Of a stretch of DNA of 64,000 nt, positions 14,751 to 34,891 are shown piece by piece (the stretch's first letter is position 1; the number at the start of each line of letters is the position of its first letter). Below the pieces are notes generated by a model. It did no database searches. It saw only the letters and a program-made list of their open reading frames with translations, and was not told the origin of the DNA. The stretch comes from Mesorhizobium sp. AR02. GTDB lineage: Bacteria > Pseudomonadota > Alphaproteobacteria > Rhizobiales > Rhizobiaceae. The translations under genes were made by a program, and so were the position numbers. The DNA lies in NCBI RefSeq assembly GCF_024746835.1, contig NZ_CP080531.1, positions 4,856,001 to 4,920,000 on the forward strand. The letters run 5' to 3'.

Positions 14751-16466
14751 TCAGGAATATAATAGCCGACGTCCGCGACGCTTCCGTTTGCGCTTCGGCT
14801 TTTTCGCTTCAGATGCAGGGAACCAAAAACCCAGCTTCAACACTTCGTCGACGCTTGTGGGACTCGGGGCGGGTGCAAGCGGGCTGAAACCATGGCCAGA
14901 ATTCGAGAGGACCGTTGATCCTCCCCGATAGTCACCTTTGCCCTGACGCTTCGGCACTCCATTCCCCCAAGCCAATAAGATTGCAAGATTAGCGCAGGCT
15001 TGAGGAAGGCACCAGACGCGCCAGGCTCGTTTTCCATGGCGGAGGGCAGCATCGAGGTTGGCGACAAGGTCGCGAACTGGTCGTCGCGAACACGTTGTGC
15101 TTGGTGCAAAGCTATGCGGCGCCAAAGCGAAGGAAGTCATTGATTGACAGCCCGGATTGAAGACGCGAAAGAGCCCGCCTTCGGAGCCACTTGTCGGTGG
15201 CGGGAGACGGGCTGCGGAAGCCTTGGAGTGTCCGAGCTCGTCTGAAATGCTTCCTGCCGCACGAACTTCAGAAGGGGGAGCTCGGTTCCATCAGCCTTTG
15301 CTAGAATTAAGAGCGACTTCCCAAGACACCACCTTTGGGCTCGCCCCACTCGGGGCGATGCGGGTCCGGTTGAGGGTTGCGGACCTCAGCCAGCAGCGAC
15401 GGGCCGCTGACAGCGTTTGAAACATGCTTCGGAATATCAGGTTCCGCTTATGCAGCAAAAATGCCCGCCAGCTTTCGGCAGCGGCAAGGTCCAACAGAAC
15501 AAGAAACATTGCACTGAATGGGAATAGTGCAGCGGCGGAAGCGATTGGGCGCGCAAATGTTCCACGGACACCTACATGCCGACACCTTGGTATGAATCCG
15601 TAAATTGTCTTGAAGGGGCAGGCTTTAAGGCACATAATTCTTAGCGCCGGTCACCCCTTCCCTGGACTGGTCCGGTGCATGGCCCGGCCTGCGAAATGCT
15701 GTCACGTTCATTGCGCGGGCCGAGGTCCTTCACACTTGCCGGTGTGAGGCCCGAGCGTCTCCTGGCGGCTTGCTGTGGCCTCGATGCACCTCTGTTGCGC
15801 TCTAGCAGGTGCCGCCAGTGCTCGCCTCTGCAGTTGGATCGTCGTCTGCAGCTTGGCCAGCAAGTTCCGTTGTCCCTAAACTCGACTGTTTGGCTGCCGC
15901 GGGAGCATACGGAACGATACGGGGAGATTTCTGATTTTGGCCCACGAAAAAGCCAACAAAATCAACGGTTCTAATACGTCCTCCGGGCCCACCATAATCG
16001 TTATTTATCAATGGCTTATTGGCCTGTTCGCCAACAGGTTCGCCAGGCAGTGGTTTGCGCGTTACCAACCGTACGACGCGGTCCATGCACTGCACGGCCA
16101 GACCTAGGGCAGGGAACAGCAGCTGTCCGGCCCGGCCGGCATCGAAATCAGGTGGCTGCATCGCGACGGTGTCGCGGCGGGGCACGCCGAATTTAAGCTC
16201 GGTGGAATCCAAATGTCTGATACGGACAGTTTTGGAGAACCGATGCGGTCTTACCATGGTCATCGAGCAGAGGACCGATCGCCAGTATCGCATCAGCGTC
16301 GATGTTCCAGAGTAACTCGCGCATCGCCGCTCCAAGTTGCAAATATCGCATGAGAGGCTTGCAAGGTTGGTCAGTATAAATCACTGCACAGGCCCCATGC
16401 CTTTATTGCTTGTCCCTTGACAGAGGCGCTAAAAGATCATTCGAATGTTGCTGGCTTGATGCCGGC
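14751..16466. other. Non-coding or degraded stretch
   Basis: About 1.7 kb with no gene I can support. Several open frames of 60-180 codons overlap on both strands, which is common in GC-rich DNA. Two minus-strand frames near 16.0-16.4 kb (starting MRELLWNIDADAILAIG at 16324, and an overlapping frame with FGVPRRDTVAMQPPDFDAG) could be two halves of one frameshifted gene of unknown family. The context between an IS remnant and a frameshifted reductase suggests decayed DNA. Confidence 0.45.
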
Positions 16467-17418
16467 ATGAGAACGAGTCTGCGCCATGAAGCTATCGGCA
16501 GCACGGTATCAAGTATCGGTTTTGGCTGCGCTTCGCTTGGTTCTCGCATTGGAGTTCGCAAGGGCATCGAGACGCTCGAACGCGCGTACGAAGCAGGGGT
16601 AACCTGGTACGACGTAGCGCCTTCGTATGGCGACGGGATGGCTGAATCGATCTGGGGCGAATTTGCATCCCGGAAACGCGGTAGCGTCTGCGTCTGCACC
16701 AAGGTTGGCATGCGCCCGCCGAAGACCTCCGTACCCATGCGACTGCTGAAGCCGTTGTCGCGGATCGCTATTGCGGCGGCTCCGGCGCTTAAGCAATATG
16801 CTTCAAGAGTGCGCTCCACGCCCTTCAAGGTGCCGCTGTCTGCCGAGTTGATAAGATCAACTGTCGAGGAGAGCCTGGGGCGTCTTCGCACGGATTATGT
16901 CGATGTCCTCGCGCTGCACCGTCCGACCGCCGAAGAACTTGTTCGCGAGGGTATCATCCGGGCCGTGGAGCGCGGTTCAGGACGGGAAAGCCCGGGCCAT
17001 TTCGGTCGCAGGAGACCTTGAGGCTGGAATGACGGCTCTCAATGAATCGCTGCCTTATCGGTTCGTTCAGATTGCCAATACCCCGCTGGAGCCAAACCTC
17101 GGGAAGTTGAAGGAGCATGCTCACCGGCACAGAACGTTTGTAACGTACGGGACATTCTCGGGCCTCGACCGAATCGTCGCGAAGTTCAATGCGCAAAAGG
17201 AAATACTGGGCGCTCTTGGCGAACTCGGATACCGCGGCAGTCCCACTGAAATTGCTGTCGCGTTTCTCGCCGACTACGCATTCGCAACGAATTCAGCGGG
17301 CGTCACCCTGGTCTCTATGTTCAAGAAGGAGCACCTCGATTTCAATCTGCTGCGATTGAAGAACGATCCAACACCCGAGCGGCTAAATGCCCTCGTTGCC
17401 GCGCTGGACATGGTGTGA
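16467..17418 (+). pseudogene. Aldo/keto reductase, disrupted by a frameshift
   Basis: Two overlapping frames together make one aldo/keto-reductase TIM barrel. The first (ATG at 16467) has SSIGFGCASLGSR, YEAGVTWYDVAPSYGDG with the catalytic Asp and Tyr, and TDYVDVLALHRPT with the usual His. It reads to GIIRAVER and then runs out at 17021. The second frame picks up as AVQDGKARAISVAGDLEAG and continues to the stop at 17418 with PTEIAVAFLADYAFA. The switch lies near 16970-16978 and needs a one-base insertion (or equivalent). It is either a true pseudogene in this decayed region or a sequencing error. Nothing shows the substrate. Confidence 0.7.
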
Positions 17419-17572: not shown

Positions 17573-18265
17573 ATGAGCAAAGAGTTCAGTGTTGCCGACG
17601 CCTATGGCACGGGCCGCGCCATCTTCATGGGACTTGAGCTGCTCGTCGCGCCCGGTGCGCTCGTCCCCCGGCCAGAGACGGAGTTGCTGGGCACGACTGC
17701 TCTTGGTGTTTTGCATCAAATGAACCTGCCGGCGCCGCGCATAGTCGACATGTGCTGCGGCACTGGCAATCTGGCGTGTGCCATCGCCCACCACATTCCC
17801 ACCGCACGTGTCTGGGCGAGCGACCTCACCGATGAATGCGTCGAAGTAGCCCGCCGCAACGCCGCCCATCACGACATGGCTGACCGCGTTTCGGTGCTTC
17901 AGGGCGACTTGTTCGACGCGCTCTCCGGCCTGGGGCTTGACGGGACGATCGACGTGATCGTCTGCAATCCGCCCTACATTTCGGAAAAGCGGCTCGAGGG
18001 CGACCGCGCGCATCTGGTCGAGCTCGAGCCGCGTGAAGCATTCGCGGCCGGCCCTTACGGCCTGAGCATCCATATGCGGGTGGTGAAAGACGCGCCGCGA
18101 TACTTGCGGCCTGGCGGCATCCTGCTCTTCGAGGTCGGCCTTGGCCAGGACCGGCAGGTGATGGCTCTGCTGGAGCGCAGCAAGGCATACGAGAACATCC
18201 GTGCTGTCTCCAACGAAGCGGGCGAGGGCCGGGTGGTTCTGGGACAAGCCAAGGCGCAGGCATGA
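17573..18265 (+). CDS. PrmC/HemK-like SAM-dependent methyltransferase
   Basis: A class I methyltransferase of 230 residues. SAM motif I is RIVDMCCGTGNLACAIA near residue 60, and the N6/N5-amide methyltransferase signature is VIVCNPPYIS near 125. A PRPETE-like motif (LVPRPETELL) precedes the SAM domain, as in PrmC, which methylates the glutamine of release-factor GGQ motifs. The protein is about 50 residues shorter than true PrmC because the N-terminal release-factor-binding helical domain is missing, so another substrate is likely. Such stand-alone NPPY enzymes also occur in natural-product clusters. It converges on the acyl carrier protein gene 55 bp away, which supports, but does not prove, a role in that block. 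Confidence 0.8.
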   Translation: MSKEFSVADAYGTGRAIFMGLELLVAPGALVPRPETELLGTTALGVLHQMNLPAPRIVDMCCGTGNLACAIAHHIPTARVWASDLTDECVEVARRNAAHHDMADRVSVLQGDLFDALSGLGLDGTIDVIVCNPPYISEKRLEGDRAHLVELEPREAFAAGPYGLSIHMRVVKDAPRYLRPGGILLFEVGLGQDRQVMALLERSKAYENIRAVSNEAGEGRVVLGQAKAQA

Positions 18266-18319: not shown

Positions 18320-18580
18320 TCAGTTCATTTTGCGGATGATGTATTGCTCGATCCCCCGAATGGAATCGAGGTTTTCAGGCAAGAGTTCGCTATCTTCGAC
18401 GATGATGCCAAAGGTCTCCTCGATAAAGCCGATAATCTCAAGCACCCCCGTCGAGTCGACGATGCCTTGATCGAGCAAGGACGTGTCGTTCACCAACGCC
18501 TTCACGTCGCTCACGTAGAAATTCGAAACCAGGAAATTGCGGATCTGCTCGCTGTAGGTTCGGTCCTTGACAGTCAACAT
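18320..18580 (-). CDS. Acyl carrier protein
   Basis: An 86-residue acidic helical protein of the phosphopantetheine carrier family. The attachment Ser is in GIVDSTGVLEII (Ser43), matching the DS(L/T) motif at the start of helix II, and is followed by the typical IEETFGIIVEDSEL. It would carry an acyl or aminoacyl group as a thioester. It is probably the last gene of a minus-strand block with the acyl-AMP ligase, AsnB-like, NadE-like and A-T-TE genes. About 156 bp including an intergenic repeat separate it from the ligase gene, so it may also have its own promoter. The natural loading partner is the neighbouring AMP-forming ligase (inference). No phosphopantetheinyl transferase is seen in the window. 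Confidence 0.9.
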   Translation of the reverse strand: MLTVKDRTYSEQIRNFLVSNFYVSDVKALVNDTSLLDQGIVDSTGVLEIIGFIEETFGIIVEDSELLPENLDSIRGIEQYIIRKMN

Positions 18581-18623
18581 GAATTCGCCCTCCGTAGCGA
18601 CACCACAAATCTAGCGACCTTGT

Positions 18624-18727
18624 CCTAAAGCGCGTCGCGTAGAGACGGATTCATGCGACGCGCTTTAGGTCCTTGTTTTATGCCTGTCGTTCTCCCAAAA
18701 CCGAGGTCACTTTTGGGCGACATGCAT
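18624..18727. repeat. Rhizobiales-type intergenic palindromic repeat
   Basis: Two hairpins in tandem. The first has perfect 15-base arms, CCTAAAGCGCGTCGC (18624-18638) and GCGACGCGCTTTAGG (18655-18669). The second pairs the region TGCCTGTCGTTCTCCCAAAA (18681-18700) with TTTTGGGCGACATGCA (18711-18726). I recognise this composite as a dispersed extragenic repeat common in Mesorhizobium-like genomes. Here it sits between the ligase and ACP genes, where the RNA hairpins could affect mRNA stability or read-through. Confidence 0.7.
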
Positions 18728-18736
18728 TGGCCCGCC

Positions 18737-20293
18737 TCATGACAGGGCCGTTTTCTTGAGTTTGCCTGTGTCTGTCATCGGCAGGCTGGCCACGACGACG
18801 ATGGACTTCGGAACCATGAAGTTTTCCAGTCGTTTCTGGCACTCCATCTGCAGCTGTTTTTCGCCGATGGTTCTTCCATGTTCCATGACGACAAACGCCT
18901 TCACCGCCTGCCCAAGGAGTTCGTCGGGAACACCGATGACCGCCGCTTCCCGAACGCCGGGAATATTCATAAGGACGTTCTCCACTTCCTTCGGCGCCAC
19001 CTTCTCGCCTCGCGACTTAATGATCTCGTCACCACGGCCAACGAAGTAGAGGTAACCCTCCGTGTCCATCCGGCAGTAGTCGCCGGTGTACAGGACCTGC
19101 TCGCCGGGCAGCGGGCCGGATTTGAGCTTCCTGGCCGTCGCCTCGGGCTTGCCCCAATATCCCTTCATCACCGTTGCGCCGCGAATAACGAGCTGGCCAA
19201 CGACGCCGGGCCCCACCCGCCTGTCATGTTCGTCTACGATCCACATTTCCGTATTCGGGATCGCGATCCCGACGCTCAATGGCTTTCGCTCGAGATCCGC
19301 CGGCGGCAAATAGGTGCAACGCTTGCATTCGGTGAGGCCGTACATCGAATAGATGCGCGCACTCGAAAACAGATCCCGAAGCATGAGAATATGCTTGAGG
19401 GGCAGGGCCGCCGCGGTGTTTGTGACGTAGCGAATGCTCGAGAAGTCCTGATCTTTAAGGGACTTGAGTTCGGAGAGTGCCGCAAAGATGGTCGGCACGC
19501 CGGGAAAGCCCGTAACCCCCTCTTGCCTGATCACCCCAAGGATCTGCGCCGGGAAAGCGAACGAGCGTTCGAGCACCAGCCGGGCGCCGGTACGAAACGC
19601 CATGATCATCTGGTACAGGCCGTAGTCGAAGGCGAGGGGTAGGACATTGAGGATCACCTCGTCCTCGGCAAGCTCGAGGTAGGAAGCGATAGACGCGCAC
19701 GCGGTCATCATGTTCCTGTGCGTCAGCATCACGCCCTTGGGTTCGCCTGTCGACCCGGACGTGTAGATGATGGCGGCAAGATCGACATCGATGCAACGCC
19801 GCGCCGGCGGTGCATCGCCGCCGTTGGCGACCGCGGTGTCCCAGCGCACGGCATGCGGCAATTGGGAGAGGTCGACGTCATCGGTCGATCCGGAAACGAT
19901 CACCCGCAGAAGTGACGGGCAACCGCGCGCCGGCTCGCGGAAGATGGGGTGCAGATGCGCGTCCGTGATCAGCGCCGCCGGTCGGCAGTCGTTGAGCAGA
20001 TAATCAAGCTTGTCACTCTTGGTGAGCGGGTTGACGATGCACACCACCGCATTTGCCTTGAGCACCGCCCAGAAGCTCACCACCGTCTCGACGGTGTTGT
20101 CGGCGAAGATCATCACGCGATCGCCGCGCACGACGCCTGATCCTGCCAGATCATGGGCGATTGCATTGGCGCGCGCCTCGAGCTCACCATAGGTGACACG
20201 TTGCTTGCCGCACACCAGCGCAACCTTGCCGCCAAGCCGGCCGGCGGAGTGGGCGAGGTAGTCATGCAGCAGAGGTACGGCATCATGCAACAT
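18737..20293 (-). CDS. AMP-forming acyl-CoA/acyl-ACP ligase
   Basis: An ANL-superfamily adenylate-forming enzyme of 518 residues. The P-loop IIYTSGSTGEPKGVMLTH lies near residue 170, the hinge and core motifs are GYLYFVGRGDEIIKSRGEK, and the catalytic lysine motif is TDTGKLKKTAL at the C-terminus. It activates a carboxylic acid as acyl-AMP and transfers it to a thiol; the adjacent acyl carrier protein is the obvious acceptor. The start at 20293 (MLHDAVPLLHDYL) matches the family N-terminus; the long upstream extension is a shadow of the previous gene. It overlaps the AsnB-like gene by 11 bp, indicating translational coupling. Similar ligase, carrier and amidotransferase sets accompany XrtA-type polysaccharide loci, but no exosortase is visible here. 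Confidence 0.88.
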   Translation of the reverse strand: MLHDAVPLLHDYLAHSAGRLGGKVALVCGKQRVTYGELEARANAIAHDLAGSGVVRGDRVMIFADNTVETVVSFWAVLKANAVVCIVNPLTKSDKLDYLLNDCRPAALITDAHLHPIFREPARGCPSLLRVIVSGSTDDVDLSQLPHAVRWDTAVANGGDAPPARRCIDVDLAAIIYTSGSTGEPKGVMLTHRNMMTACASIASYLELAEDEVILNVLPLAFDYGLYQMIMAFRTGARLVLERSFAFPAQILGVIRQEGVTGFPGVPTIFAALSELKSLKDQDFSSIRYVTNTAAALPLKHILMLRDLFSSARIYSMYGLTECKRCTYLPPADLERKPLSVGIAIPNTEMWIVDEHDRRVGPGVVGQLVIRGATVMKGYWGKPEATARKLKSGPLPGEQVLYTGDYCRMDTEGYLYFVGRGDEIIKSRGEKVAPKEVENVLMNIPGVREAAVIGVPDELLGQAVKAFVVMEHGRTIGEKQLQMECQKRLENFMVPKSIVVVASLPMTDTGKLKKTALS

Positions 20294-22310
20294 GCAAGCG
20301 CTCCTCCCGATGTTCGCAGTCGACGTCGACGCTGAGCCCATGCACGCGGGTTCCACTGGGACAGCTCGCGACAAACTGCTGATGAAGGAGTTGGGTAGAC
20401 AGCACGCCGACGAGCGCCATGTTGTCGGCATTGGAAAGATCACCGTCACCGGTCCTGGCCTGGCACTTGCCGAGCAGGCGTGTGACCGAAGCCGGATCGA
20501 AAACATTCGCCTCGCGTATCGCTGTCTCCGAAAGCGCTTCGCGAATGTATTCCGGTGCGGCGTCGGCGGTGAAGCAAAGCGCGTTGGGCGCCCGGAATGG
20601 CTGCTTCTTGCGTGTTACGATCTCAGAGGGGATGATCGGCTCTGCCACGCGTTTGAGCACGTGCTTCTCATCGAGGACACGCAGCTTGTAGGAAGGCGGA
20701 AGTGAATTCGCGAGCCTCACAAGTTCATCGTCCAGGAACGGGAAGCGCCCCTCGACGGAGTGAGCCATCAGCATCCTGTCGCCTTGCGAAGAAAGCAGAT
20801 AGCCCGACATCAATGTCTGGATCTCGAGATATTGGTCCTGCGCAAGAGGGCTCCAACGCGAAAACGCCGCGGGCAGGCGGGCGAGCAGTTCCGACACAGC
20901 GTCGCGGCGCTGGGACTCGGCGCGCAGGTCCGCGGAAAACAAGCGCTTGATGGCGCTGGTGCTGCGCCAGCGCGTGTCATGGGCAAAGCCGGGGGCGTCA
21001 TAGCTCTCGATACCGCGCCCGAAGAACTGGCGCGCCATCGCTTGCTGTTGCACCGGCGAGCGAGTGAGATACGGGTAAAGGCGCTCCAGGAGCCGCGAGC
21101 GTCGTGTCGATGCCGGCTGGTGTCCCCAGAAGCGGCGAACCTTGCCTTCGCGGAACAGGTCGTAGCCAGCAAACATTTCGTCGGCACCCTCGCCGGTCAG
21201 CACGACCTTGATGCCACGCTCGCGCACCAGCCTCGAGAGCAGGAACAGCGGCGCCGGGGCGGTCCTCAGTATCGGGCGCTCGGTGTGGTAGATCACCTCC
21301 GGAAAGATTGCGGCGATATCGCTGCGCGAAACCACCACTTCATGGTGCTCACTGCCGGTTGCTTCGGCAACCAGGCGCTGGAAGCGGGTCTCGTCATATT
21401 CGGCGTCGGCAAAACGCAAGGAGAAGGTCTGGAAGCGTCGGCCGGCGAAGCGCCGTCCCAATGTCGTCACAAGCGAACTGTCCAGCCCTCCGGAGAGGTA
21501 ACAGCCGACAGGCACGTCGGCGCGCACCATTCGGAGCGCCGTCGCGGCCTCGAGGGCGCCACGCACGCGGTCCACCGCGTCATCGCACGACCCGGTGAAC
21601 TCGCCGTGCCGCGATCCGAAATTTTCGGGGTAGGAAGGCTGCCAGAAGGCCTGCTCGCGAACGGTGCCATCCTGGTAGGTGCGGACATGCCCTGGCACGA
21701 GTTCATGGATCCCCTGAAATACGCCTTGCGGCGGAACGACTGTCCAGAGCGTGAAGGTCTGATCGAGGCCGGCGGGATCAAAGGCGCGAGGGATGGTTGG
21801 ATCGGCCGCGAAAATGGCCTTCACTTCGCTGGCGAAATAAAGCCGGCCCGCGTGCTCACAGAAATGCAGGGGGCAAATGCCGAACCGGTCGCGCGACAAG
21901 ACGAGACGACCCGCTATCGAGTCCCAGATTGCGATTGCCCATTGGCCGTTCATACGCTCGAAGGCCGCTTCTCCCCACGCACGATATGCGTGTAGCGCGA
22001 CCTCTGTGTCGCTGCGGGTTCGGAAGCGGTGGCCGAGTGCAATCAGCTTTTCACGCAACTCGACGTAATTGAATATCTCGCCGTTGAACACGATCCAGGT
22101 CGTGTCGCCTGTGTCCGCAAGCGGCTGCTGGCCACTGGAAAGATCGACGACGGACAGGCGGGCATGCGCCAGCCCCGCGCGTTTGTCCCGGTAAAGGCCG
22201 CGCTCGTCCGGGCCGCGATGCGCCAGCGCACCCACCATCCGCATCAGCGCCTCGCGCGAAGGAGACGCCGCCGCGGCGTTCAGCGCCACAATTCCAGCGA
22301 TGCCGCACAT
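20283..22310 (-). CDS. AsnB-like glutamine-dependent amidotransferase (copy 1)
   Basis: A 675-residue asparagine-synthetase (class B) homologue. The N-terminal glutaminase has Cys2 as nucleophile (MCGIAGIV), with LAHRGPDERGLY and VFNGEIFNYVELR. The C-terminal ATP-pyrophosphatase domain has the PP-loop CYLSGGLDSSLVTTL near residue 260 and VVLTGEGADEMFAGYD near 365. True AsnB makes asparagine from aspartate, but homologues in O-antigen and natural-product clusters amidate other acids such as uronic acids or carrier-bound acyl groups. Its place between an ammonia-ligase-like gene (6 bp upstream) and an acyl ligase (11-bp overlap) favours a tailoring role. A second homologue lies at 34.9 kb. Confidence 0.87.
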   Translation of the reverse strand: MCGIAGIVALNAAAASPSREALMRMVGALAHRGPDERGLYRDKRAGLAHARLSVVDLSSGQQPLADTGDTTWIVFNGEIFNYVELREKLIALGHRFRTRSDTEVALHAYRAWGEAAFERMNGQWAIAIWDSIAGRLVLSRDRFGICPLHFCEHAGRLYFASEVKAIFAADPTIPRAFDPAGLDQTFTLWTVVPPQGVFQGIHELVPGHVRTYQDGTVREQAFWQPSYPENFGSRHGEFTGSCDDAVDRVRGALEAATALRMVRADVPVGCYLSGGLDSSLVTTLGRRFAGRRFQTFSLRFADAEYDETRFQRLVAEATGSEHHEVVVSRSDIAAIFPEVIYHTERPILRTAPAPLFLLSRLVRERGIKVVLTGEGADEMFAGYDLFREGKVRRFWGHQPASTRRSRLLERLYPYLTRSPVQQQAMARQFFGRGIESYDAPGFAHDTRWRSTSAIKRLFSADLRAESQRRDAVSELLARLPAAFSRWSPLAQDQYLEIQTLMSGYLLSSQGDRMLMAHSVEGRFPFLDDELVRLANSLPPSYKLRVLDEKHVLKRVAEPIIPSEIVTRKKQPFRAPNALCFTADAAPEYIREALSETAIREANVFDPASVTRLLGKCQARTGDGDLSNADNMALVGVLSTQLLHQQFVASCPSGTRVHGLSVDVDCEHREERLHVA

Positions 22311-22316
22311 CCCCGG

Positions 22317-23276
22317 TCAATCCTCGCCAATTTCCACGGAAAGCAAAGGTCGCGCGTGAAGATAGTGGGCGGCCCGCCGTTTCGCGTCGATGTCCTTGAA
22401 GACTTTCTGCAGCTGGGGCTCGGTGAGGCCGGCAACCGCCGCGACCTCATCGCTGGCGATCCCGTGGTTCAGGCCGCAAAGGCATAGATCCATCAGGTGA
22501 TAGGGCAGCGCGAAGTAGAATTCCTCCTGGCTTTGCGCCATGGAGAATGTGTCGGTTGTCGGTGCCCGCCGCCGGATTTCCTCGTCCACGCCGAGATATT
22601 CCGCGAGCTGATAAACCTGGGTTTTGTAAAGGTGGACGATCGGCATCAGGTCGGCGGTTCCGTCACCTTGCTTGACGAAAAACCCCTGGTCGTACTCCAA
22701 ACGGTTTGGTGTCCCCGCAACCGCGTATTTGAGGCGGTCGGCGTGGTAGTATTCCGTCATCTTGCGCAGGCGCTGCTTATAGTTGGTCGCTGCGACGATC
22801 TGCAGATAGGCAGCTGGCGACAGACGCACCGTGTCGACCTTACCCTCTGGGTCCTGGACGGTGAGCCGGGTGATGTTGAGGCCGTTGCTCTCGAGAACCG
22901 GCTCAAGCACCAGCTTGCATTTCCAGCCGTCCCCATAGTCGGGAACGACGGTTCGGATTGCCTCGAGCTGCCGGCTATAGGCGCCAATGGCCTCCAGTGC
23001 CGGGCCTATGTTTTCCAGGACGCTCTCAATGCCAAGCTGGGCCGCGACACGGCGGCCAAGTCTAAGGGAGTCGCCGGAGGAATCCCGCTCCGGCATGAAC
23101 AGTCCCAAGACCTTGTCCTTCCCGAACGCGCGCGTGCACAAGGTCGCGACGACGGAACTGTCGATGCCGCCGGAAAGGCCGACAACCACGCCTCGACGAT
23201 GGAGCGTGCCAAGAACCTGCCTGCGCAAGGTGTCAACGATGCGATCGACCTCCGCACGAGCATCGAGCACCAGCAC
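22317..23276 (-). CDS. NAD-synthase-like (NadE) ammonia ligase
   Basis: A 319-residue N-type ATP pyrophosphatase of the NAD synthase family. The PP-loop GLSGGIDSSVVATL is near residue 35. Typical NadE stretches follow: LSPAAYLQIVAATNYKQRLR, YAVAGTPNRLEYDQGFFVK, and the acidic GDGTADLMPIVHLYKTQVY. It lacks a nitrilase-type glutaminase domain, so it uses free ammonia or ammonia handed over by a partner. NadE adenylates deamido-NAD and amidates it. In a biosynthetic operon such a duplicate may amidate another carboxylate, or simply provide NAD. It sits 6 bp upstream of the AsnB-like gene and 20 bp downstream of the A-T-TE gene on the same strand, arguing for a pathway role. Confidence 0.82.
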   Translation of the reverse strand: MLVLDARAEVDRIVDTLRRQVLGTLHRRGVVVGLSGGIDSSVVATLCTRAFGKDKVLGLFMPERDSSGDSLRLGRRVAAQLGIESVLENIGPALEAIGAYSRQLEAIRTVVPDYGDGWKCKLVLEPVLESNGLNITRLTVQDPEGKVDTVRLSPAAYLQIVAATNYKQRLRKMTEYYHADRLKYAVAGTPNRLEYDQGFFVKQGDGTADLMPIVHLYKTQVYQLAEYLGVDEEIRRRAPTTDTFSMAQSQEEFYFALPYHLMDLCLCGLNHGIASDEVAAVAGLTEPQLQKVFKDIDAKRRAAHYLHARPLLSVEIGED

Positions 23277-23296
23277 GTCCTTGCTGAAGTGCGAGA

Positions 23297-26053
23297 TTAC
23301 GTCGATGACAAATCCTCCCTTTTGCGAGACTCGGCCGGGGAGTAGGTCTGCACGACGGCCGTCTCGATGAGCGGACGGTTGGTGGCAAGATTAGGCTCTA
23401 TGACAAGGTCGATGTGGTTGCCCTTGATTGGAACCACGTCCAGGTGTGCCAAAGCGCTATCCCAGCCCAAAGCCCGAGGCATTCCCTCCCGACGACATCG
23501 AAACAAGGTGCCGGAGATGGGCAGAGCCGGTTTCGGCGCCTCGAGCCACTGGAAGAAAGACTGCGCCCGCAAGACCTCCTGCAGTTCCAGTTTGGTTCTG
23601 AAGCTCGTCGGGTTGAACTCTCCCTTGGCAAACCGGTCGAGAATCCTGGCGAGATACGCTTCGCAGCCCATGGCAACGGTGATTTTCGCAAGGGCTCGGC
23701 AAGCCATTCGGTGGGCGGATATGCGATTCGTGCGAATACGATGGAATGTGCGGGTAAGTGTCTCCCAATGGTTGCTCGGCTCGTCCAGAAGGCTCGTATC
23801 GAGGATACCCAAAAACCTCACCGACCGCCCGGCTTCCAGAAGCCGTGCCGCAACCTCGAATGCAACCGCGCCACCAAGCGAATGGCCGAGAAGTCGCACG
23901 GGGCCGGCAGGTTGGGCGCGGCTTATCTGCTCGAGTGCGGCGGCAGCCATGGCGGAGAGAGTGTTATGTCCGTCCAGTATCGCGGCGAGGCCAGGATACC
24001 GGATGGGGCTCACCCGGGCGACTTTGCCCATGGCGGCTGCGAACGCAGCCAGGCTCGGACCATAGCCGACGGACCCTGGAAACAGGAAAAGAACCGGGGG
24101 GTGATGCTTCGTCGCGCGCCGTTCGCCCGCCTGTGCGGACACGACCGCCTCAACCATCTGGTCGAAGCTCATGCCGACGGTGAAGGCCTCGAGGCCCAGC
24201 TCTTGCCCGATAGCGCTTTCGATCGCCATGACGCAATGCAGCAGCTGCAGCGAATCTCCTCCCGCGTCATCCCAGTTTCCCGCGGCAACGCCCGTGTTGA
24301 GAACGTGCATCCACGCGTGCTGCACCATTTGCCTTGTATTCAGTTCGCCTCTTGCGGGGGGCGGTCGGGGAGTGGACGGCCGGGCGGCTGGCGCCGTCTT
24401 TCTCTCCGAACGATCCATTTCGGTCAGCGTTGCCAGGTCGACCTTCCCTCCCAACAGGCGCGGGATCGCGGCGATGGTGTGCAACCGCAAGGGACACAGT
24501 GGCGCCGGCAACGTTGTTCTGACGAGCTGGCGAAGCTCATCCGCAAAAGCAGCGCCTGCGAAGTGCTGGGGAACCGCGAATGCGATGAGTTCCTCCGCTG
24601 GCGTAACGATTGCCACGGCATCCGCCACCGAAGGCGCGCAACGCAGGACCCGTTCGAGCTCGGCGGGCTCGATGCGTCGACCATTGATCTTGATCTGGCG
24701 CCCTTTGCGGCCGACGATCCACAACAGGCCATCATCGTCCAGCCGAACGAGGTCGCCCGTCGCAAAAAGCCGAACATCGGGATCGTCCGGGTCCGGCCGC
24801 GCGGGAACGACGACACCGTTCTCCCAATGACCAAGCAGAACATAGGGGCTTCTGATCAGAAGCTCTCCACTCTCGCCTGTCCCAACATTGCGCCCGGCTT
24901 CGTCGACAATAGCGAATGCCATCCCGGGAAGCAGCCTGCCAACGGGAACCGACGCGTCTTGCTCCGGCCAGTCCGGCGGCAAGAACCATTGCGAACCGGT
25001 GGTTTCCGTTGATGAGTAGCCGATCTGGATCAGGCACTGGTCCGAAACGGCTTTGCGCAGCAACGCGATGTCCGTCCACGACACCTTCTCGCCACCGAGC
25101 CGGGCCACTCTGAGTGACTGGAAGGCGTCAGCTGGGGCCTCAGTCAGGAGTGCCCGAAGCAGCGCCGGCACAAGATACACAACCGTTACGCCTTCGGCTT
25201 GAACCCGAGCGCGGACGGCGCGCAGGCCGACCGCCTCCACCTCGAGAAGATGCAACGTGGCGCCCGTCAGCAACGCCGTAAAAATCTCCCGGCAACCGGC
25301 AATCGTGGCGGGCCCGGTCAGCGGCAGAAAAACGTCATCTGCGTTGATATGGCACGCGTCAACATATTGCCGGACCCGCCACAGCAGGCTGCGTTGGCTG
25401 TTGACGATCCCCTTGGGACGTCCTGTGCTACCTGAGGTGTAAAGCACCATTGCCGGCGCATCGACGGAAACCGGAGTGGGCTGCGGTTGCTGTGATGACT
25501 TTTGATCGTTCGGCGCGACGGCGGCCGCAATATCGATCCATAGGACGTCCTGCGCCAGATCGACGGGGTGAACATTTCCAGCGCCTATGATGGCGCCGAG
25601 CCGTGCGGCGTTCACAATCTCGATGATCCGGGAGCCTGGATCTCTTATATTGAGCGGAACGGAAGGCCGCCCGGCCGCGATGCTCGCCAGTATTGCCACA
25701 GCGTACCAGACCGAGTTGGCATGAAGGATGCCGACCGCCTGTCCTTCGGGGACGGCAACGGCGATCCGGTGAGACAGTGTCTCGACAGCCCGGAAAAGCT
25801 CCGAGTAAGTCAGGCGATTGGTGCCGTCGCCAATCGCGAGCTTGTCGGGATATTGCCTTGCGACGTTTCCAAGGTGATCGAAGACGGGAATGTCCGCAAA
25901 TTCGGCGCCCATCTGTTGATAGTGGCGCCAGACAGGGCCTCCCTGGTCAAGAGCATATTCAGGCACATCTGACCATTTGCGGGTCGTCGTTGGTCGACAA
26001 TCCACCTGTAGATCTTGATTCACCGCTTCCGAGTGCAAATACGCTGAAGACAT
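23297..26053 (-). CDS. NRPS-like A-T-TE protein (copy 1)
   Basis: A 918-residue single-module enzyme without a condensation domain. An adenylation domain (about 55-550) carries VLYTSGSTGRPKGIV and LLWIVGRKGRQIKINGRR, with the catalytic lysine motif LLGGKVDLATL. A carrier domain (about 574-640) has GGDSLQLLH with the phosphopantetheine Ser near 601. A type I thioesterase (about 652-918) has the nucleophile in LLGHSLGGAVAFEVA near 725 and a probable catalytic His in IKGNHIDLV. It would activate one amino or other acid, hold it as a thioester, and release or transfer it through the TE. It heads the minus-strand block that includes NadE-like, AsnB-like and ligase genes. The paralogue at 29.3-32.1 kb has the same architecture and long shared motifs. 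Confidence 0.9.
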   Translation of the reverse strand: MSSAYLHSEAVNQDLQVDCRPTTTRKWSDVPEYALDQGGPVWRHYQQMGAEFADIPVFDHLGNVARQYPDKLAIGDGTNRLTYSELFRAVETLSHRIAVAVPEGQAVGILHANSVWYAVAILASIAAGRPSVPLNIRDPGSRIIEIVNAARLGAIIGAGNVHPVDLAQDVLWIDIAAAVAPNDQKSSQQPQPTPVSVDAPAMVLYTSGSTGRPKGIVNSQRSLLWRVRQYVDACHINADDVFLPLTGPATIAGCREIFTALLTGATLHLLEVEAVGLRAVRARVQAEGVTVVYLVPALLRALLTEAPADAFQSLRVARLGGEKVSWTDIALLRKAVSDQCLIQIGYSSTETTGSQWFLPPDWPEQDASVPVGRLLPGMAFAIVDEAGRNVGTGESGELLIRSPYVLLGHWENGVVVPARPDPDDPDVRLFATGDLVRLDDDGLLWIVGRKGRQIKINGRRIEPAELERVLRCAPSVADAVAIVTPAEELIAFAVPQHFAGAAFADELRQLVRTTLPAPLCPLRLHTIAAIPRLLGGKVDLATLTEMDRSERKTAPAARPSTPRPPPARGELNTRQMVQHAWMHVLNTGVAAGNWDDAGGDSLQLLHCVMAIESAIGQELGLEAFTVGMSFDQMVEAVVSAQAGERRATKHHPPVLFLFPGSVGYGPSLAAFAAAMGKVARVSPIRYPGLAAILDGHNTLSAMAAAALEQISRAQPAGPVRLLGHSLGGAVAFEVAARLLEAGRSVRFLGILDTSLLDEPSNHWETLTRTFHRIRTNRISAHRMACRALAKITVAMGCEAYLARILDRFAKGEFNPTSFRTKLELQEVLRAQSFFQWLEAPKPALPISGTLFRCRREGMPRALGWDSALAHLDVVPIKGNHIDLVIEPNLATNRPLIETAVVQTYSPAESRKREDLSST

Positions 26054-26411
26054 TCAGGGCCCCGCCAAGCTGAATGCCGAACATCGCTCGCCACTGAACT
26101 CTTTTCATCAATCATTCGGATGATGCCTCGATCTTAACCGGGCAGCGCTTTCCCGATCCGCCCTCCGGAAAGATCTCTATTCGTCTCCAGCAACGGCCGG
26201 TTCCCCTCGAAGGTCCTTCGACCGCGAGACGCTTGCCCAGGCCAATCCCGCGTGCCACCGGCGGCAGGTATTATGATCCGGAGGCGGGCGCCTCCAAGAA
26301 TCCACGAATCGGAACAGTCATTCAAATGAACGTTGGTGTGGTTTGTATTCTGGCTAAGCTTTGATCCGCAGGTGAATGAATGCTTGCTCGGAGACGCTTG
26401 GGCATTCCTCC
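26054..26411. other. Intergenic region between divergent genes
   Basis: About 360 bp between the A-T-TE gene (minus) and the P-loop kinase gene (plus); both promoters must lie here. A short minus-strand frame (26134-26325) ends with FEGNRPLLETNRDL, which resembles the C-terminal NRPLIET of the two A-T-TE proteins. The likeness is too short to call a remnant. Confidence 0.4.
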
Positions 26412-27149
26412 ATGATCATCGAGTTGTTTGGGCCGCCTGGTGCAGGCAAGACCACACTTCTTCGCGGCCTCTGCCAGGGGATGGCGAAACACGGCATCAA
26501 CGTGAAGACAGTGAACGGGTATCGCCTGATCGAATATGGGTCGGCCCAGGACGACGGTCCGGAAGTACGCCATGGCATTGGGCGTATTGGCAAGAAGATT
26601 GCCACATCCGGTCCTGTCCTGCTGTCGACCTTGCCAAAGGACGGTGTCGCGGCCCGGCTTCTGGCATCAATCCCTCTACGAAGCCGCACATGGTCATGGC
26701 GCATGAAGGTCGACATCGCCCTGCTGTGCGAGTCCTGGCGTCAGGCACAGGAATCGGAAGGCTACTTCATTTTCGAAGAGGGCCTAATCCAGGCTTTGTG
26801 TGCGCTGGTTGTGCTGGCGCGAACTCCAAGCATTGACGTGGTTCGTGACTGCCTGGCGTTCCTGCCGCGACCGGACCTCCTTATCCAGCTCGATGCGCCG
26901 CAGGAAACGTTGCGCAGCCGTCTTATGGATCGGCATGCGCAGCAACCGCTCCTCGAGGTCCTGCTGTTCGAACTCGGCGTGGACAGGGGGTTGAGGCAGG
27001 CCGAGATCTCAAGGGAGATCGGCGAATGCCTGCGCCAGGACCGATGGCCCTTGATAAAAGTCAACGGTGGTGAACCTCACGATTTCAACAAGGTCATCGC
27101 GCGGGTCTTGGAAGAGCATGAGACTGCCCCGGAGTGGCCAAGGCGATAA
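26412..27149 (+). CDS. P-loop kinase-like NTPase, stand-alone copy
   Basis: About 245 residues starting MIIELFGPPGAGKTTLLRGL, a Walker A P-loop at the very N-terminus as in nucleotide, sugar and antibiotic kinases. Another conserved point is the acidic stretch GYFIFEEGLIQALCALV near residue 125. PRPDLLIQLDAPQETLRSRL near 165 looks like the strand before a lid region with arginines, as in thymidylate-kinase-like enzymes. The N-terminus and acidic motif match those of the kinase domain fused to a flippase at 39.2 kb (MIIEFFGPPGSGKTTF; EIVIFDQGYVQAIG), so the two are one family. The acceptor is unknown; a sugar or lipid intermediate is possible from context. The ATG at 26412 is chosen over 26376 because it matches the paralogue. 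Confidence 0.7.
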   Translation: MIIELFGPPGAGKTTLLRGLCQGMAKHGINVKTVNGYRLIEYGSAQDDGPEVRHGIGRIGKKIATSGPVLLSTLPKDGVAARLLASIPLRSRTWSWRMKVDIALLCESWRQAQESEGYFIFEEGLIQALCALVVLARTPSIDVVRDCLAFLPRPDLLIQLDAPQETLRSRLMDRHAQQPLLEVLLFELGVDRGLRQAEISREIGECLRQDRWPLIKVNGGEPHDFNKVIARVLEEHETAPEWPRR

Positions 27150-27570: not shown

Positions 27571-29124
27571 TCACATTACGAGGAACGAAGACGCCGTCAA
27601 CGCCAGGTGCGGAGCAAGAGTGGCAAACTGGATCTGGTGTGCGCCGCCTGCGCCATCGGCGTCGAAAGAGAGGGCGCCGGTCGAACTGTTGTAGATGATG
27701 TGGTCACCGCTGTCATGCGCACCCTTGCCGACGTGGAATGCCGAGGTGGGAAGGGTGCTGCCTTGAAGGCCGGTAAACACAGTGTGGTCGAGAAGGATCT
27801 TGTCCTGGGCCACATTGAAGTCGGTGATCTTGTCGACATTGCTGGTATTGAGGGCGGATTTGAAGACAAAGACATCCGCGCCCCCATTTCCCGTGAGAAC
27901 GTCTTTCCCGCCACCGCCGTTGATGTAGTTGTTGCCGGCATTGCCATCTATGGTTTGGGAGAACTCGTTTCCTTTGAGATTGATGGGGGAGGTGTCGGAC
28001 TTGCTCGTGGTGGCGAGATGTTCGATCTCCGAGCCGGCCGACAATACATAACTCACCGATGCCAGCACGGTATCGTTGCCGCCGCCCGGCAGTTCCACCA
28101 CCTTGTCGCCGGCGTTGTTGACATAATAGGTGTCGTTGTAGCCGCGGCCGATCATCGTGTCGGCGCCAGTGGTGCCGTGAAGCACATCCGCGCCGCCCGT
28201 GCCGTAGAAAGTGTGATCGCTGGTCGAAGGCACACTGGTGGTCGGGGGCACACTGCTGACCGGAGGCACACTGCTGACCGGAGGCACACTGCTGACCGGA
28301 GGCACGGTGCTGGGCGGAGGCACGGTGCTGGTTGGGGGCACAGTGCTGCCAGTCGTATCGCCGGTCGAAGGCGTGCTGGTGGTGCTCTGGTTGTGCTGAA
28401 GGAAGAGGGCTTGCAGCGCCGACGAGTTGCCAAGCGCCGTGTCGCCCTGTTGAGAACCCCACGCATAGGCATAGTCGAAGGCGGGCGATGGCGCCACCTT
28501 GGCCCAGTGGTCCAGCATGGTCTGTTCCTGGGCGACGGTGGGAAGGACATATTGGCCGCCCGTATCAGTTGTGAAACTGCCGCCCCCAAACGTCTGGTAA
28601 ACCGGAACGATCTGGCTGACCGGGATGCCCGAGGCGACAGCCGCGGCCACGTTCCTGTCGATCATGTTGTAGTCAACCGTGCTTGTGCCGGTGCGTACCG
28701 GGTAGGGATCCACGCCGTAATAGTCGATATGCGTGTTGGCGGGATTGTAAGTGTTTGAAAAATCGGGATTTGCGGAAGACCCCATGTTCATCATGGTGAT
28801 GAAGGTCTTGGCGCCGGGCAGGTTTGTGTGGATCCAGTCGGATTCCGCCTTCAGATTCGCGGCAGTGGCATAGGTCCCCCATTTGCCGGTCGGGTCCGGC
28901 TCATCGACGAGGAAGAAGCCGAATGCCTTCGGATTGCCGATGAAGGGCGTGACTTTCTGGATAAAGGACGAGGTTGCGCCATTGGCTTCATTGAGCCACA
29001 CCAGACCTTTCGTGCCGGCCGGCAAGGCGTTGAGTTCGTCCACGGATGAAACGTCGACAAGATTGAATCCGGCGGCGGTGACCTCGGAGGCCGATCCACC
29101 CGAGGCGTAATGGAGGGTTGTCAT
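27571..29124 (-). CDS. Secreted glycosidase-like protein with RTX calcium-binding repeats
   Basis: 517 residues. The N-terminal part (1-245) looks like a glycoside-hydrolase TIM barrel: AFGFFLVDEPDPTG offers a candidate acid/base Glu, and HIDYYGVDPYPV and YAYAWGSQQGD are typical barrel-end motifs. A low-complexity VPP-rich linker (about 258-300) follows. The C-terminus has RTX-type glycine/aspartate repeats (GTGGADVLHGTTGADTMIG; GGGGKDVLTGNGGADVFVF) and ends in a hydrophobic tail LTASSFLVM. There is no N-terminal signal peptide; RTX repeats plus such a tail indicate type I secretion. The ABC/HlyD pair at 56-59 kb is a likely exporter, as PrsDE exports EPS-glycanases in Rhizobium. The ATG at 29124 follows an AAGGA site. 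A polysaccharide-trimming role is inference. Confidence 0.8.
   Translation of the reverse strand: MTTLHYASGGSASEVTAAGFNLVDVSSVDELNALPAGTKGLVWLNEANGATSSFIQKVTPFIGNPKAFGFFLVDEPDPTGKWGTYATAANLKAESDWIHTNLPGAKTFITMMNMGSSANPDFSNTYNPANTHIDYYGVDPYPVRTGTSTVDYNMIDRNVAAAVASGIPVSQIVPVYQTFGGGSFTTDTGGQYVLPTVAQEQTMLDHWAKVAPSPAFDYAYAWGSQQGDTALGNSSALQALFLQHNQSTTSTPSTGDTTGSTVPPTSTVPPPSTVPPVSSVPPVSSVPPVSSVPPTTSVPSTSDHTFYGTGGADVLHGTTGADTMIGRGYNDTYYVNNAGDKVVELPGGGNDTVLASVSYVLSAGSEIEHLATTSKSDTSPINLKGNEFSQTIDGNAGNNYINGGGGKDVLTGNGGADVFVFKSALNTSNVDKITDFNVAQDKILLDHTVFTGLQGSTLPTSAFHVGKGAHDSGDHIIYNSSTGALSFDADGAGGAHQIQFATLAPHLALTASSFLVM
28226..28351. repeat. 18-bp tandem repeat encoding the VPP linker
   Basis: Seven consecutive 18-bp units related to GGAGGCACACTGCTGACC lie inside the RTX glycosidase-like gene. 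Three central units are (near) identical and the outer ones diverge. Each encodes six residues of the type VSSVPP on the minus strand. Copy number is likely to vary between strains. Confidence 0.85.
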
Positions 29125-29348
29125 GCAAATATCCTTCGTCCGATTCGGTAGGTGCCCCACACCTGCCTACGGGAAAGGATACATTAGAGACAAATCACAT
29201 ACCGGCGCCTGTTGATAGAATCTTTGATCATCGTGAAGAAAACGCTACCGGCTCGGCCGGCTAGCTTGCCTCCGAGGCTTGTAGACTATCCAACGATTTT
29301 TGGCACTCCACGCAGGACTGTGGAGTGCGCATGGCGACCGTCTATTTG

Positions 29349-32117
29349 CTATGCGCCACTCATCAGAAGGGCCCTTTCTATCAACGGACGGTTGTGGCTG
29401 AGATGGGGTTCAACGAGCATGTCCAGGTGCCCGCCGACGATCGGGACTATGTTCAGGCCGGTAACGAAAGCACTCCACCCAAGGTCTGTCGGAACGCCTG
29501 TGCGCCTGCACCGAAACAAGGTGGCGGTAATCGGCAATGCGGGCTTCGGTTGCGCGAGCCATTGGCCAAATGCCCGCATCCGCAGGATTTCTTCGAGCTC
29601 GAGGCGCAAAATGAATCGCGTTCTGGCGAAGGTCTTCCATTTAAGCCAGTCGATGCCTCTCGCGAGCTGGGCCTCGGCACCAAATCGGGCAAACAATTTT
29701 GCCAGAGCCCGCAAAGTCATGCGATCCACCGTCACTCTATGCGCGCGGATGCGCTGAGCGGTTCGTGCAAGAGTTTCACGGTAATTGTGCTGCCCAGGCC
29801 CGATATTGGTGTCGAGGATTCCCAGGAACGTGACCGACCGACCGGCAGCAACAAGTTTGGCGGCAACTTCGAACGCGACGCCGCCACCAAGCGAATAGCC
29901 GATCAGCTTGACATTGCCATCAGGCTGGACCTGGCCGATCTGGTCGACAACCGCATCCACCATCCGCGGTATCGTGCCATGTCCCCTCAGCAGATCGTTC
30001 AGATCCCCGTAGCGCACGGCAACAACCCTGGCGACATTGCCCATCTCGGCACCGAAGGCCGCCAGGCTTGGGCCGTAGCCGATCGATCCCGGCACGATGA
30101 ACAAAATGGGCCTCGGGTCGGAAGCCTCGATAAGCGAGCTACTTGTGTCCTGCCCTGGAGACGCAGCCCGGACGACATCGGCAAAGCTCATCCCGACTGT
30201 GAACGCGTCCAGGTTGAGTTCCCGCCCCAGAGCCGTCTCAAGTTCCATGACGAATTGCAGCAGTTTCAATGAATCGCCACCGGCATCGTCCCAGCGGCTG
30301 CCAGCAGCCCTTTTGCCCGGGAGAATCCTTTCCCATACGGCCGCAGCGGTGCCTTCGATATCAAGCGGGTTCGCTGCCTGCCGGGCGATGGGCGTATTCT
30401 GGGCGTCTTGCGCGTTCAGTGCGCGATCCAGTTCCCGCAGCCTGACACCGTCGACCTTGCCGCCTTTGAGCTGCGGTATCTCGGCAACACTGTGCAGTCG
30501 CGTCGGATGAACCGCCGGCGGCAAGGCCGTCCTGATCAAGTCGCGCAATTCAGCAATGAGCTCGCTTTCGCCAGGTCTCGCGGGGACGACAAAGGCCACC
30601 AGTTCGTTCGCATCCGTCACCACCGCAACGGCATCATCCACCTGGGGCGCCCGGCGCAAGACGAGTTCCAGCTCGGCAGGTTCGACCCGCCTTCCGTTTA
30701 TTTTGATCTGGCGTCCCTTTCGTCCGACGATCCACATCATTCCGGTGTCGTCGACCTTGACCAGATCGCCCGTTGCGAAGGTTCGAAGCCGGGGGTTGCC
30801 GGAGTTCGCTTGAAGAGGGACGTTTTCCCCATCCGCCCAATAGCCGAGCGTGGTGTAGTTGCCTCTGATCAGCAACTCTCCTTCATCGCCCGGGGCGACT
30901 TCGCATGCGTTCTCATCCACGATGGTATATTCGATGCCGGGTAGGACGAAGCCAACCGGGACCGTCGCGCCTCGTTCCTGGTAGCCTCTCGGCAGAAACC
31001 ATTGGGTGCCAGTCGTTTCCGTGGACGAATAGCTGATCTGGACAAGACAGGAATCGGGAACGCTGTCGCGGAGCCGGTCGATATCGGACCATAGAATCTT
31101 TTCTCCGCCGACCCGCACGATCCGCAAGGAAGAGAATGTGTCGGGCGCAGAACCATTCATCAACACACGCAGCAGGGCCGGCACGAGATAGACGACCGTT
31201 ACCCGCCATTTCTCGAAATTTTCGCGGGCGGCGCGAATGCCGGCGCTCTCGATATCCGAGAGGTACAATGTGGCGCCGCACAGCATCGGGGTCATCATCT
31301 CGCGGCATCCCGCGATCGTCGCCGGCCCGGTCAGTGGCATGAACACGTCGTCGGGACCGAAGTGGCAGGCATCCACATACTGCTGAACGCGTTGGAGGAT
31401 CGCCCGCTGGCTGTTGACGACGCCCTTCGGCGCCCCGGTGCTGCCCGACGTGTACAGAACGATTGCCGGGGCATCGACCGACACTTCGGACGGTAACGCC
31501 GATAAGCTGCCATCCGGCGTTGCGGCCATGCAATTTGCCGCGTCGATCCATATGAGGGAGGAGGCATCCGGCCAGCCTGCCGGCTTGCCCGGCCCTGGCT
31601 TTATGATTGCAGCCAGCCGCGCGCTGGTGGCAATTGCAGCGAGGCGCTGAAATGGATCCCGGGGGTTCAACGGCACGGCGGGCCTGCCAGCCCGCATGGC
31701 GGCGAGCATGGCCACCGGATACCAGAGGGTATTTCCGATAAGAAGCCCGACAGCCTTGCCCGGTGGGACCGAACCAGCAATCGCACCCGCCAGGGTTTGG
31801 ACTGCGTTGAGCAGTTCCGAAAAGCTGAGGGATGTGGAGCCGTCACTGATCGCGATCTTGTCAGGGTATTTTTCGACAATCCGCTCCAGGTGAAAGAATG
31901 CCGATTTTTCGGAGAAGTCGTCGCCCATCCAGGGGAAGGGGAGGCTGGTTGGCCCGTCCATGTCCAGAGGGTGGGTGGAGGCCTGTTTCCATGTGAAGCC
32001 GTCTGGAGGGCTGGTGTTGCGATTTGTCACAACACCTTGATCCGTCGGTCCGCCAACGAAAGGCAAGGTGCGTGTAAAATAGCTTTCTAAACGCGGGCGC
32101 CCCGACGTTTCCAACAC
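29349..32117 (-). CDS. NRPS-like A-T-TE protein (copy 2)
   Basis: 922 residues with the same layout as copy 1: adenylation domain (VLYTSGSTGAPKGVVNSQR; MWIVGRKGRQIKINGRRVE; LKGGKVDGVRL), carrier domain with DDAGGDSLKLLQ, and thioesterase with LIGYSLGGGVAFEVA, where the usual GHS is GYS, and IVGGHLDML for the His region. Long segments agree with copy 1, for instance YVDACH, GPATIAGCRE and VVYLVPALLR, so they arose by duplication. It would load and release a single acid; differences in the adenylation pocket could change the substrate. The start is uncertain: GTG at 32117 or TTG at 32114 with AAGGGGG nearby, or an internal ATG at 31961 without a clear ribosome site. It is divergent from the polysaccharide locus. 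Confidence 0.88.
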   Translation of the reverse strand: MLETSGRPRLESYFTRTLPFVGGPTDQGVVTNRNTSPPDGFTWKQASTHPLDMDGPTSLPFPWMGDDFSEKSAFFHLERIVEKYPDKIAISDGSTSLSFSELLNAVQTLAGAIAGSVPPGKAVGLLIGNTLWYPVAMLAAMRAGRPAVPLNPRDPFQRLAAIATSARLAAIIKPGPGKPAGWPDASSLIWIDAANCMAATPDGSLSALPSEVSVDAPAIVLYTSGSTGAPKGVVNSQRAILQRVQQYVDACHFGPDDVFMPLTGPATIAGCREMMTPMLCGATLYLSDIESAGIRAARENFEKWRVTVVYLVPALLRVLMNGSAPDTFSSLRIVRVGGEKILWSDIDRLRDSVPDSCLVQISYSSTETTGTQWFLPRGYQERGATVPVGFVLPGIEYTIVDENACEVAPGDEGELLIRGNYTTLGYWADGENVPLQANSGNPRLRTFATGDLVKVDDTGMMWIVGRKGRQIKINGRRVEPAELELVLRRAPQVDDAVAVVTDANELVAFVVPARPGESELIAELRDLIRTALPPAVHPTRLHSVAEIPQLKGGKVDGVRLRELDRALNAQDAQNTPIARQAANPLDIEGTAAAVWERILPGKRAAGSRWDDAGGDSLKLLQFVMELETALGRELNLDAFTVGMSFADVVRAASPGQDTSSSLIEASDPRPILFIVPGSIGYGPSLAAFGAEMGNVARVVAVRYGDLNDLLRGHGTIPRMVDAVVDQIGQVQPDGNVKLIGYSLGGGVAFEVAAKLVAAGRSVTFLGILDTNIGPGQHNYRETLARTAQRIRAHRVTVDRMTLRALAKLFARFGAEAQLARGIDWLKWKTFARTRFILRLELEEILRMRAFGQWLAQPKPALPITATLFRCRRTGVPTDLGWSAFVTGLNIVPIVGGHLDMLVEPHLSHNRPLIERALLMSGA

Positions 32118-34890: not shown

Positions 34891-34891
34891 A

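Follow-up and report, generated by a model that had tools for sequence, protein, structure and literature searches.

The operon and its conserved core

We analysed a 64,000-nucleotide stretch of the Mesorhizobium sp. AR02 genome (contig NZ_CP080531.1, positions 4,856,001 to 4,920,000; hereafter the window, whose own numbering is used for all coordinates), in which five open reading frames (ORFs) packed on the minus strand form a putative biosynthetic operon. The host genome is 8.9 Mb in size. An original prediction, made from the bare sequence of this DNA, had placed five genes here, with gaps of 20 and 6 bp, an 11-bp overlap and 156 bp to the acyl carrier protein (ACP) gene; the ORFs lie at precisely those positions, and the spacing was correct throughout. 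Its domain calls (PP-binding, AMP-binding, AsnB with glutaminase, NAD_synthase, and AMP-binding plus Thioesterase) were likewise borne out by Pfam and NCBIfam, but a PrmC-like gene on the opposite strand had been overlooked. These genes are:

18320-18580, minus strand: ACP (PF00550), pantetheine site D-S-T
18737-20293, minus strand: adenylate-forming ligase, 518 aa from the ATG at 20293 (PF00501/PF13193)
20283-22310, minus strand: AsnB-like glutamine-hydrolysing amidotransferase (glutaminase domain, TIGR01536, TIGR03108)
22317-23276, minus strand: NadE-like ammonia-type amidating enzyme (NAD_synthase domain, three-stranded insert)
23297-26053, minus strand: A-T-TE (adenylation-thiolation-thioesterase) protein 1, accessory, Mesorhizobium branch (PF00501, PF00975)
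17573-18265, plus strand: PrmC/HemK-like methyltransferase, catalytic domain only, with NPPY motif; divergent from the operon

The ligase ATG at 20293 is preceded by the stretch GGGAGGAG, and longer in-frame starts are present, among them a GTG at 20356 (21 codons before the ATG) that would give a 74-bp overlap with the AsnB gene; most likely, the true start is 20293, yielding the 11-bp overlap. The third-position GC content is 0.69-0.76 in the five genes versus 0.67-0.68 in two antisense comparison ORFs, values so close that this index alone is weak evidence, and homology carries the case.

Gene neighbourhoods were compared with the NadE-like protein as the point of reference. It was found in 30 of 101 genomes (own genome included; 34 matches), and AsnB, ligase and ACP genes adjoined it in all 20 matches that were fetched with their flanks (17 genomes). 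Ten of these loci (type I, the window pattern) have the gene order A-T-TE, NadE-like, AsnB, ligase, ACP, together with a PrmC-like gene in every case. The other ten (type II) have the order AsnB, ACP, ligase, NadE-like, with a PrmC-like gene in three and a GNAT-fold protein in all ten, one of them a weak partial match. The proposed co-occurrence of five families was thus only partly upheld: four of them recur together elsewhere, but the A-T-TE protein is present in none of the 10 type II loci. As judged by sequence comparison, the conserved unit is a four-gene core of AsnB, ACP, ligase and NadE-like genes.

A scan of a one-genome-per-species collection yielded at least 589 stretches, at least 585 of which encode relatives, and the following counts refer to the best 80 loci. 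Family models matched AsnB in 75, ligase in 73, ACP in 69, PrmC-like proteins in 34, GNAT proteins in 21 and GDSL-type hydrolases in 6 of them; the ligase-model matches include A-T-TE adenylation domains, and every such locus also has a free-standing ligase match. Missing partners were mostly located at contig ends. Among the 61 loci with at least 5 kb on each side of the NadE-like gene, ligase was found in 61, AsnB in 60, ACP in 57 and all three in 57, and the same-strand sets displayed six complete gene orders. Chance clustering is ruled out by the retention of the core across species in several gene orders. Complete sets occurred in records, several of them metagenome bins, whose titles we take to place them in Pseudomonadota, Myxococcota, Bacteroidota, Planctomycetota, Nitrospirota and Armatimonadota, while four Acidobacteria-titled records (L080, L084, L092 and L106) held only partial sets, as did records with no flank such as L109. 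In a genome-drawn sample of 397 Pseudomonadota, 16 genomes, the host's among them, had the NadE-like protein; ten of these lay outside the genus, and they carried ligase in 10, ACP in 10 and AsnB in 8 cases. A contig titled Bacillus subtilis SK6B4 (L088) bears a type II module with the same order and partners as the Pseudochrobactrum/Brucellaceae contigs L093 and L095; our guess is a contaminated assembly.

Catalytic motifs and the ligase pocket

The pantetheine site D-S-T of the ACP is kept in 68 of 68 relatives. The operon AsnB scored 579.5 bits with TIGR01536, 408.9 bits with TIGR03108 (cut-off 816.9) and 378.8 bits with TIGR03104 (cut-off 570.1), and its glutaminase Cys2 as well as the SGGxDS synthetase P-loop motif are intact in all 71 relatives. 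The NadE-like protein scored above the curated NadE models (NF002048, 509.9 versus 313 bits; TIGR00552, 150.7 versus 63.65 bits), and structure prediction and fold comparison assigned it the NadE fold. Across 48 aligned sequences, residues of its P-loop and its GTPNRLE, GDG and LYK stretches vary little or not at all, and its closest named relatives are from Mesorhizobium. The predicted structure includes a three-strand insert at about residues 108-152, a region skipped by both of the available sequence alignments with NadE proteins of known structure. The protein thus shares its fold and the P-loop (SGGIDSS), GTxNxxE and GDG stretches with NadE and the related NMN synthetase (3fiu), but it differs from NadE in this insert, in its operon with an ACP and a ligase, and in its redundancy with a separate 570-aa glutamine-dependent-type NAD synthetase encoded elsewhere in the genome. 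The adaptation of a NadE homologue as an NMN synthetase is on record (PMC3376133).

The PrmC-like protein (230 aa) has the catalytic NPPY domain in common with the PrmC/HemK glutamine N5-methyltransferases, and NPPY is present in 34 of 34 relatives. On the other hand, the N-terminal domain is missing (the alignment to HemK begins at HemK residue 69), the score with TIGR03534 (184.1 bits) is below the cut-off of 199.1, and the gene is linked to the module; the only other strong PrmC match in the genome is 29% identical to it. In PrmC, the NPPY motif serves the methylation of a glutamine amide nitrogen, a role that suits an amide-making pathway.

The best NCBIfam match of the ligase was the XrtA-system model TIGR03098 (477.5 bits versus a cut-off of 592.35). 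Its adenylation-pocket residues, which the original prediction had singled out for analysis, were read by alignment, giving DYYPVNMRCK at the specificity positions. Of 72 relatives, 52 share the code DYYP[VIL]NMRC; it spans Mesorhizobium, Myxococcota and a bin titled Armatimonadota, and this wide recurrence argues for a single conserved substrate (of the 73 loci that matched the ligase model, the incomplete L095 was left out). An equivalent of the Asp that anchors the alpha-amine, which we take to be position 235 in GrsA numbering and which was placed through sequence alignment only, is present in the window ligase and 57 of the 72 relatives, while the Arg330 equivalent is present in all 72. 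Asp-less ligases with another pocket (e.g., VYSAVQMRLK) were seen in L066, L074, L076, L080, L084, L092, L094 and L105, suggesting that these modules may be variants taking another acid.

Accessory proteins and the glycan context

Beyond the operon, the window contains the following features:

29349-32117, minus strand: A-T-TE protein 2, a paralogue of A-T-TE 1 (52% identity over 895 columns), overlooked by the original prediction
26376-27149, plus strand: P-loop kinase-like protein between the A-T-TE genes (weak AAA matches), association only
27571-29160, minus strand: RTX-repeat protein with an EglC-like C-terminal part (PF00353; NF052454, 64 bits versus a cut-off of 700), association only
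32411-54591, plus strand with a few genes on the other strand: neighbouring exopolysaccharide locus, by family matches

Judging from gene content across the loci, the A-T-TE protein is a local add-on outside the conserved core. It is encoded by the first operon gene in all 10 fetched type I loci, and no full-length match was found outside L042-L062 among the 80 loci or in the 10 type II loci. Only its C-terminal part is matched in five loci of Bradyrhizobium, Tardiphaga and Phreatobacter type, and this part proved to be thioesterase-type in the two that were scanned. Lineages other than the Mesorhizobium branch encode a GDSL-type hydrolase, a tandem-GNAT acyltransferase or a protein of thioesterase type. 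The predicted fold of one such GNAT, from L118 outside the window, resembles N-myristoyltransferase and Eis at about 10% identity. Because the A-T-TE protein is outside the core, the earlier proposal that the activated acid is joined to an A-T-TE-bound acid cannot describe the general chemistry.

A-T-TE 1 carries the sites GGDSL at 598, GHSLGG at 723 and NHIDL at 879; its T domain fell below Pfam reporting (E 0.001), yet the GGDSL site is present. As originally noted, no condensation domain was matched by Pfam in either A-T-TE protein, which sets the system apart from modular nonribosomal peptide synthetases. The adenylation pockets (IARYALGGSK in A-T-TE 1 and IARYVVSGTK in A-T-TE 2) both lack the Asp235 equivalent, so the substrate is probably an acid other than an alpha-amino acid. 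The proteins may resemble the alpha-keto-acid A-T-TE enzymes. Both paralogues occur together in L043, L044 and L048, and the P-loop kinase-like gene lies beside A-T-TE 1 in L042-L044, L046 and L048. In L046 (NZ_CP080529.1), the annotation includes the four core genes but nothing at the site of the A-T-TE match, which is split. A fusion protein was considered as a clue to reaction order at this locus, where an A-T-TE frame running into the NadE-like gene is the sole open frame with two families, and was rejected on account of the split match; the 1581-residue open frame of G253 (L143) was also rejected as a fusion, the second family being absent.

The exopolysaccharide locus encodes a GT4 glycosyltransferase, a second AsnB, Wzz-like and flippase-like proteins (both matches slightly below the Pfam cut-offs), an acyltransferase, sugar nucleotide enzymes, a DegT/polyprenyl transferase and export proteins. 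Its AsnB-like enzyme (34835-36889, plus strand) scored 561 of the 816.9 bits required by TIGR03108, above the operon AsnB. The DegT aminotransferase and polyprenyl-phosphate sugar transferase domains lie within a single ORF (49213-51021, plus strand). Besides the RTX protein, the window encodes a type I secretion pair (ABC exporter and HlyD-type adaptor) at 55947-59071 on the plus strand.

To place the module in its wider context, glycan-specific families (GT2, GT4, DegT, polyprenyl transferase, export, nucleotidyl transferase and flippase) were tallied within 10 kb. They flank 16 of 30 loci (relatives plus the phylum sample) and 14 of 38 others, compared with 0 of 20 control regions, namely 20-kb stretches at chosen positions in 20 module-carrying genomes. 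With epimerase-type matches, which were excluded from the main tally as unspecific, the counts rise to 21 of 30, 23 of 38 and 4 of 20. The tally is a lower bound, its seeds being the window proteins and L067/L101-type proteins, and its rows are not independent, given that the sets share at least two contigs (L065/L138 and L036/L117) and that type I Mesorhizobium is one lineage. Tracking with polysaccharide loci, which the original prediction had proposed to check, therefore held for part of the loci; the remaining ones had no glycan-specific match. The link between module and glycan genes is real, but it is not universal. The window's combination of module, RTX protein, GT4 and second AsnB recurs in Microvirga lupini (L112), where the module is of type II.

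Proposed pathway and alternative explanations

Starting from the gene set, its conservation, the intact catalytic motifs and the conserved ligase pocket, which are established at the sequence level, we propose, with about an even chance of being right, that the module uses its own carrier protein to assemble an aminoacyl group bearing an amide. This reading is favoured because of the linkage (57 of 61 complete sets, six orders), the recurrent pocket, the presence of a housekeeping NAD synthetase and a PrmC candidate elsewhere in the genome, the GNAT partner in 21 of 80 loci, the glycan-specific neighbours and the precedent of NMN synthetase; the original idea of two adenylating and two ATP-pyrophosphatase amidating enzymes in a carrier-protein pathway is likewise supported. 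The ligase would adenylate one particular amino acid and then load it onto the ACP, and this amino acid probably has a second carboxylate, in view of the Asp amine anchor and the invariant Arg. AsnB (using glutamine) and the NadE-like enzyme (using ammonia) would adenylate and amidate carboxylates of the aminoacyl group or of an acceptor, and the PrmC-like enzyme, where present, would N-methylate an amide. Release or transfer may be carried out by a thioesterase (alone or in A-T-TE), a GDSL-type hydrolase or a tandem-GNAT N-acyltransferase, with a surface glycan or another amine as the possible destination of the acyl group; in this Mesorhizobium, the group would most likely end up on the exopolysaccharide of the adjoining locus. 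A fuller version, which we hold only tentatively and consider on balance doubtful, is that aminoacyl-ACP tailoring in several phyla uses a NadE-family recruit to amidate a carrier- or glycan-linked acid and a PrmC-type recruit to N-methylate the amide, so that surface glycans or other amines would be capped with an N-methyl-amide. Should our reading of the module hold, it would represent a new route for decorating bacterial surfaces and a recruitment of the NadE and PrmC folds into secondary metabolism, and metabolic models ought not to list this NadE subfamily under NAD synthesis. The conserved ligase pocket makes the first pathway step directly testable.

Several observations weigh against this proposal. 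With full flanks, L080, L084 and L092 have no recognisable ACP and L097 has neither AsnB nor ACP (partners are missing as well from the single 10-kb flank of L068 and of L098), and in L140 and L141, which belong to one family, NadE-like, ligase, ACP and GNAT genes were found but AsnB was not found in the 20 kb read. No PrmC-like gene was found in 46 of the 80 loci, so methylation would be optional. The Asp anchor is absent from 15 of the 72 ligases, and those with other pockets may use a different acid; Arg330 also occurs in all 14 XrtA-type ligases read, and a dicarboxylic substrate thus need not follow. About half of the loci have no glycan-family match within 10 kb, which means that glycan transfer may not be general, and the 38-locus set has no matched control.

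The product could instead be a free small molecule, a compatible solute or signal made by a logic like that of N-acetylglutaminylglutamine amide, with glycan proximity being incidental, and we consider this rather unlikely. That pathway combines a GNAT with an AsnB; the module shares AsnB amidation with it and, in type II loci, a GNAT, the operon AsnB gives a sub-threshold match to its amidotransferase (378.8 of 570.1 bits), and glycan-specific matches are absent within 10 kb of 14 of the 30 and 24 of the 38 loci. Nevertheless, the module has an ACP and a ligase, which indicate a tethered acyl group, the glycan-specific families were found in 0 of 20 arbitrary regions of module-carrying genomes, and no ATP-grasp domain was present among the 40 proteins scanned with Pfam, a small fraction of the neighbours. 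The nearest described system is the XrtA/PEP-CTERM exopolysaccharide set (TIGR03098, TIGR03108), which likewise has D, N, M and R pocket anchors, an AsnB-like enzyme and often a glycan context, and whose defining features were looked for here and not found. That the module is a member or recent offshoot of this set with the exosortase lost is improbable. The likeness, already remarked on in the original prediction, is genuine: the XrtA models are the best NCBIfam match of the ligase and the second best of AsnB, the window's second AsnB is nearer to TIGR03108 (561 of 816.9), and all 14 XrtA-type ligases that were read have D, M and R, and 13 of them have N (14 of 16 were readable, L183 and L188 being dropped; 8 score above and 6 below the TIGR03098 cut-off). 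Yet the ligase and AsnB scores of the module are under the curated cut-offs, its pocket differs at three or more positions from all 14 of these ligases, none of which has the Y-P-C combination, and its additional NadE-like gene was detected in 0 of the 16 genomes with XrtA-type ligases, the same query having matched 16 of 397 Pseudomonadota. An exosortase (PF09721), as the original prediction had also noted, was not matched in the whole genome, in a search that matched 1 of 14 control genomes.

Two further explanations concern single components. That the A-T-TE proteins are the main product-forming enzymes, to which the core supplies an amide precursor for a Mesorhizobium-specific metabolite, appears very improbable: they come first in all 10 fetched type I operons, two paralogues exist in some strains and their Asp-less pockets suggest a non-amino acid, but the full-length protein is restricted to L042-L062 among the 80 loci, five others matching the C-terminal part only, and in L046 its match is split while the core genes remain. 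Least probable of all is that the NadE-like protein is a spare ammonia-dependent NAD synthetase in an operon that merely gathers nitrogen-assimilating genes; although it has the NadE fold and motifs and passes the NCBI NadE models, it carries the extra insert, a complete NAD synthetase is encoded elsewhere, and 57 of 61 sets are complete in six orders.

With regard to other known systems, the ligase of the module is separate from the ACP as in DltA/DltC and the beta-aminoacyl-ACP synthetases, from which the module differs in its two amidating enzymes and methyltransferase; no DltB-type transferase was among the Pfam-scanned proteins, no search having been aimed at DltB. In agreement with the original prediction, which knew of no described counterpart, no assigned product was found in the literature: no published description of the gene set appeared at the level of titles and abstract beginnings, where subscription literature is mostly outside reach, and the set is not described in the accessible parts of PMC2922099, PMC11340318 and PMC3376133. 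On an annotated Mesorhizobium plasmid, the genes are named nadE, asnB, AMP-binding protein, acyl carrier protein and SAM-dependent methyltransferase; in public annotation, a deeply conserved biosynthetic module is thus masked by housekeeping names from asparagine and NAD synthesis.

Two other observations were made in the window. An aldo/keto reductase-like ORF (16410-17021, plus strand) overlaps the next ORF, which lies in a different frame and extends to 17418, and this gene may be broken. Furthermore, a single ORF at 9045-11270 on the minus strand combines a NodS-like methyltransferase domain with a polysaccharide deacetylase domain, which recalls Nod-factor-type chemistry.

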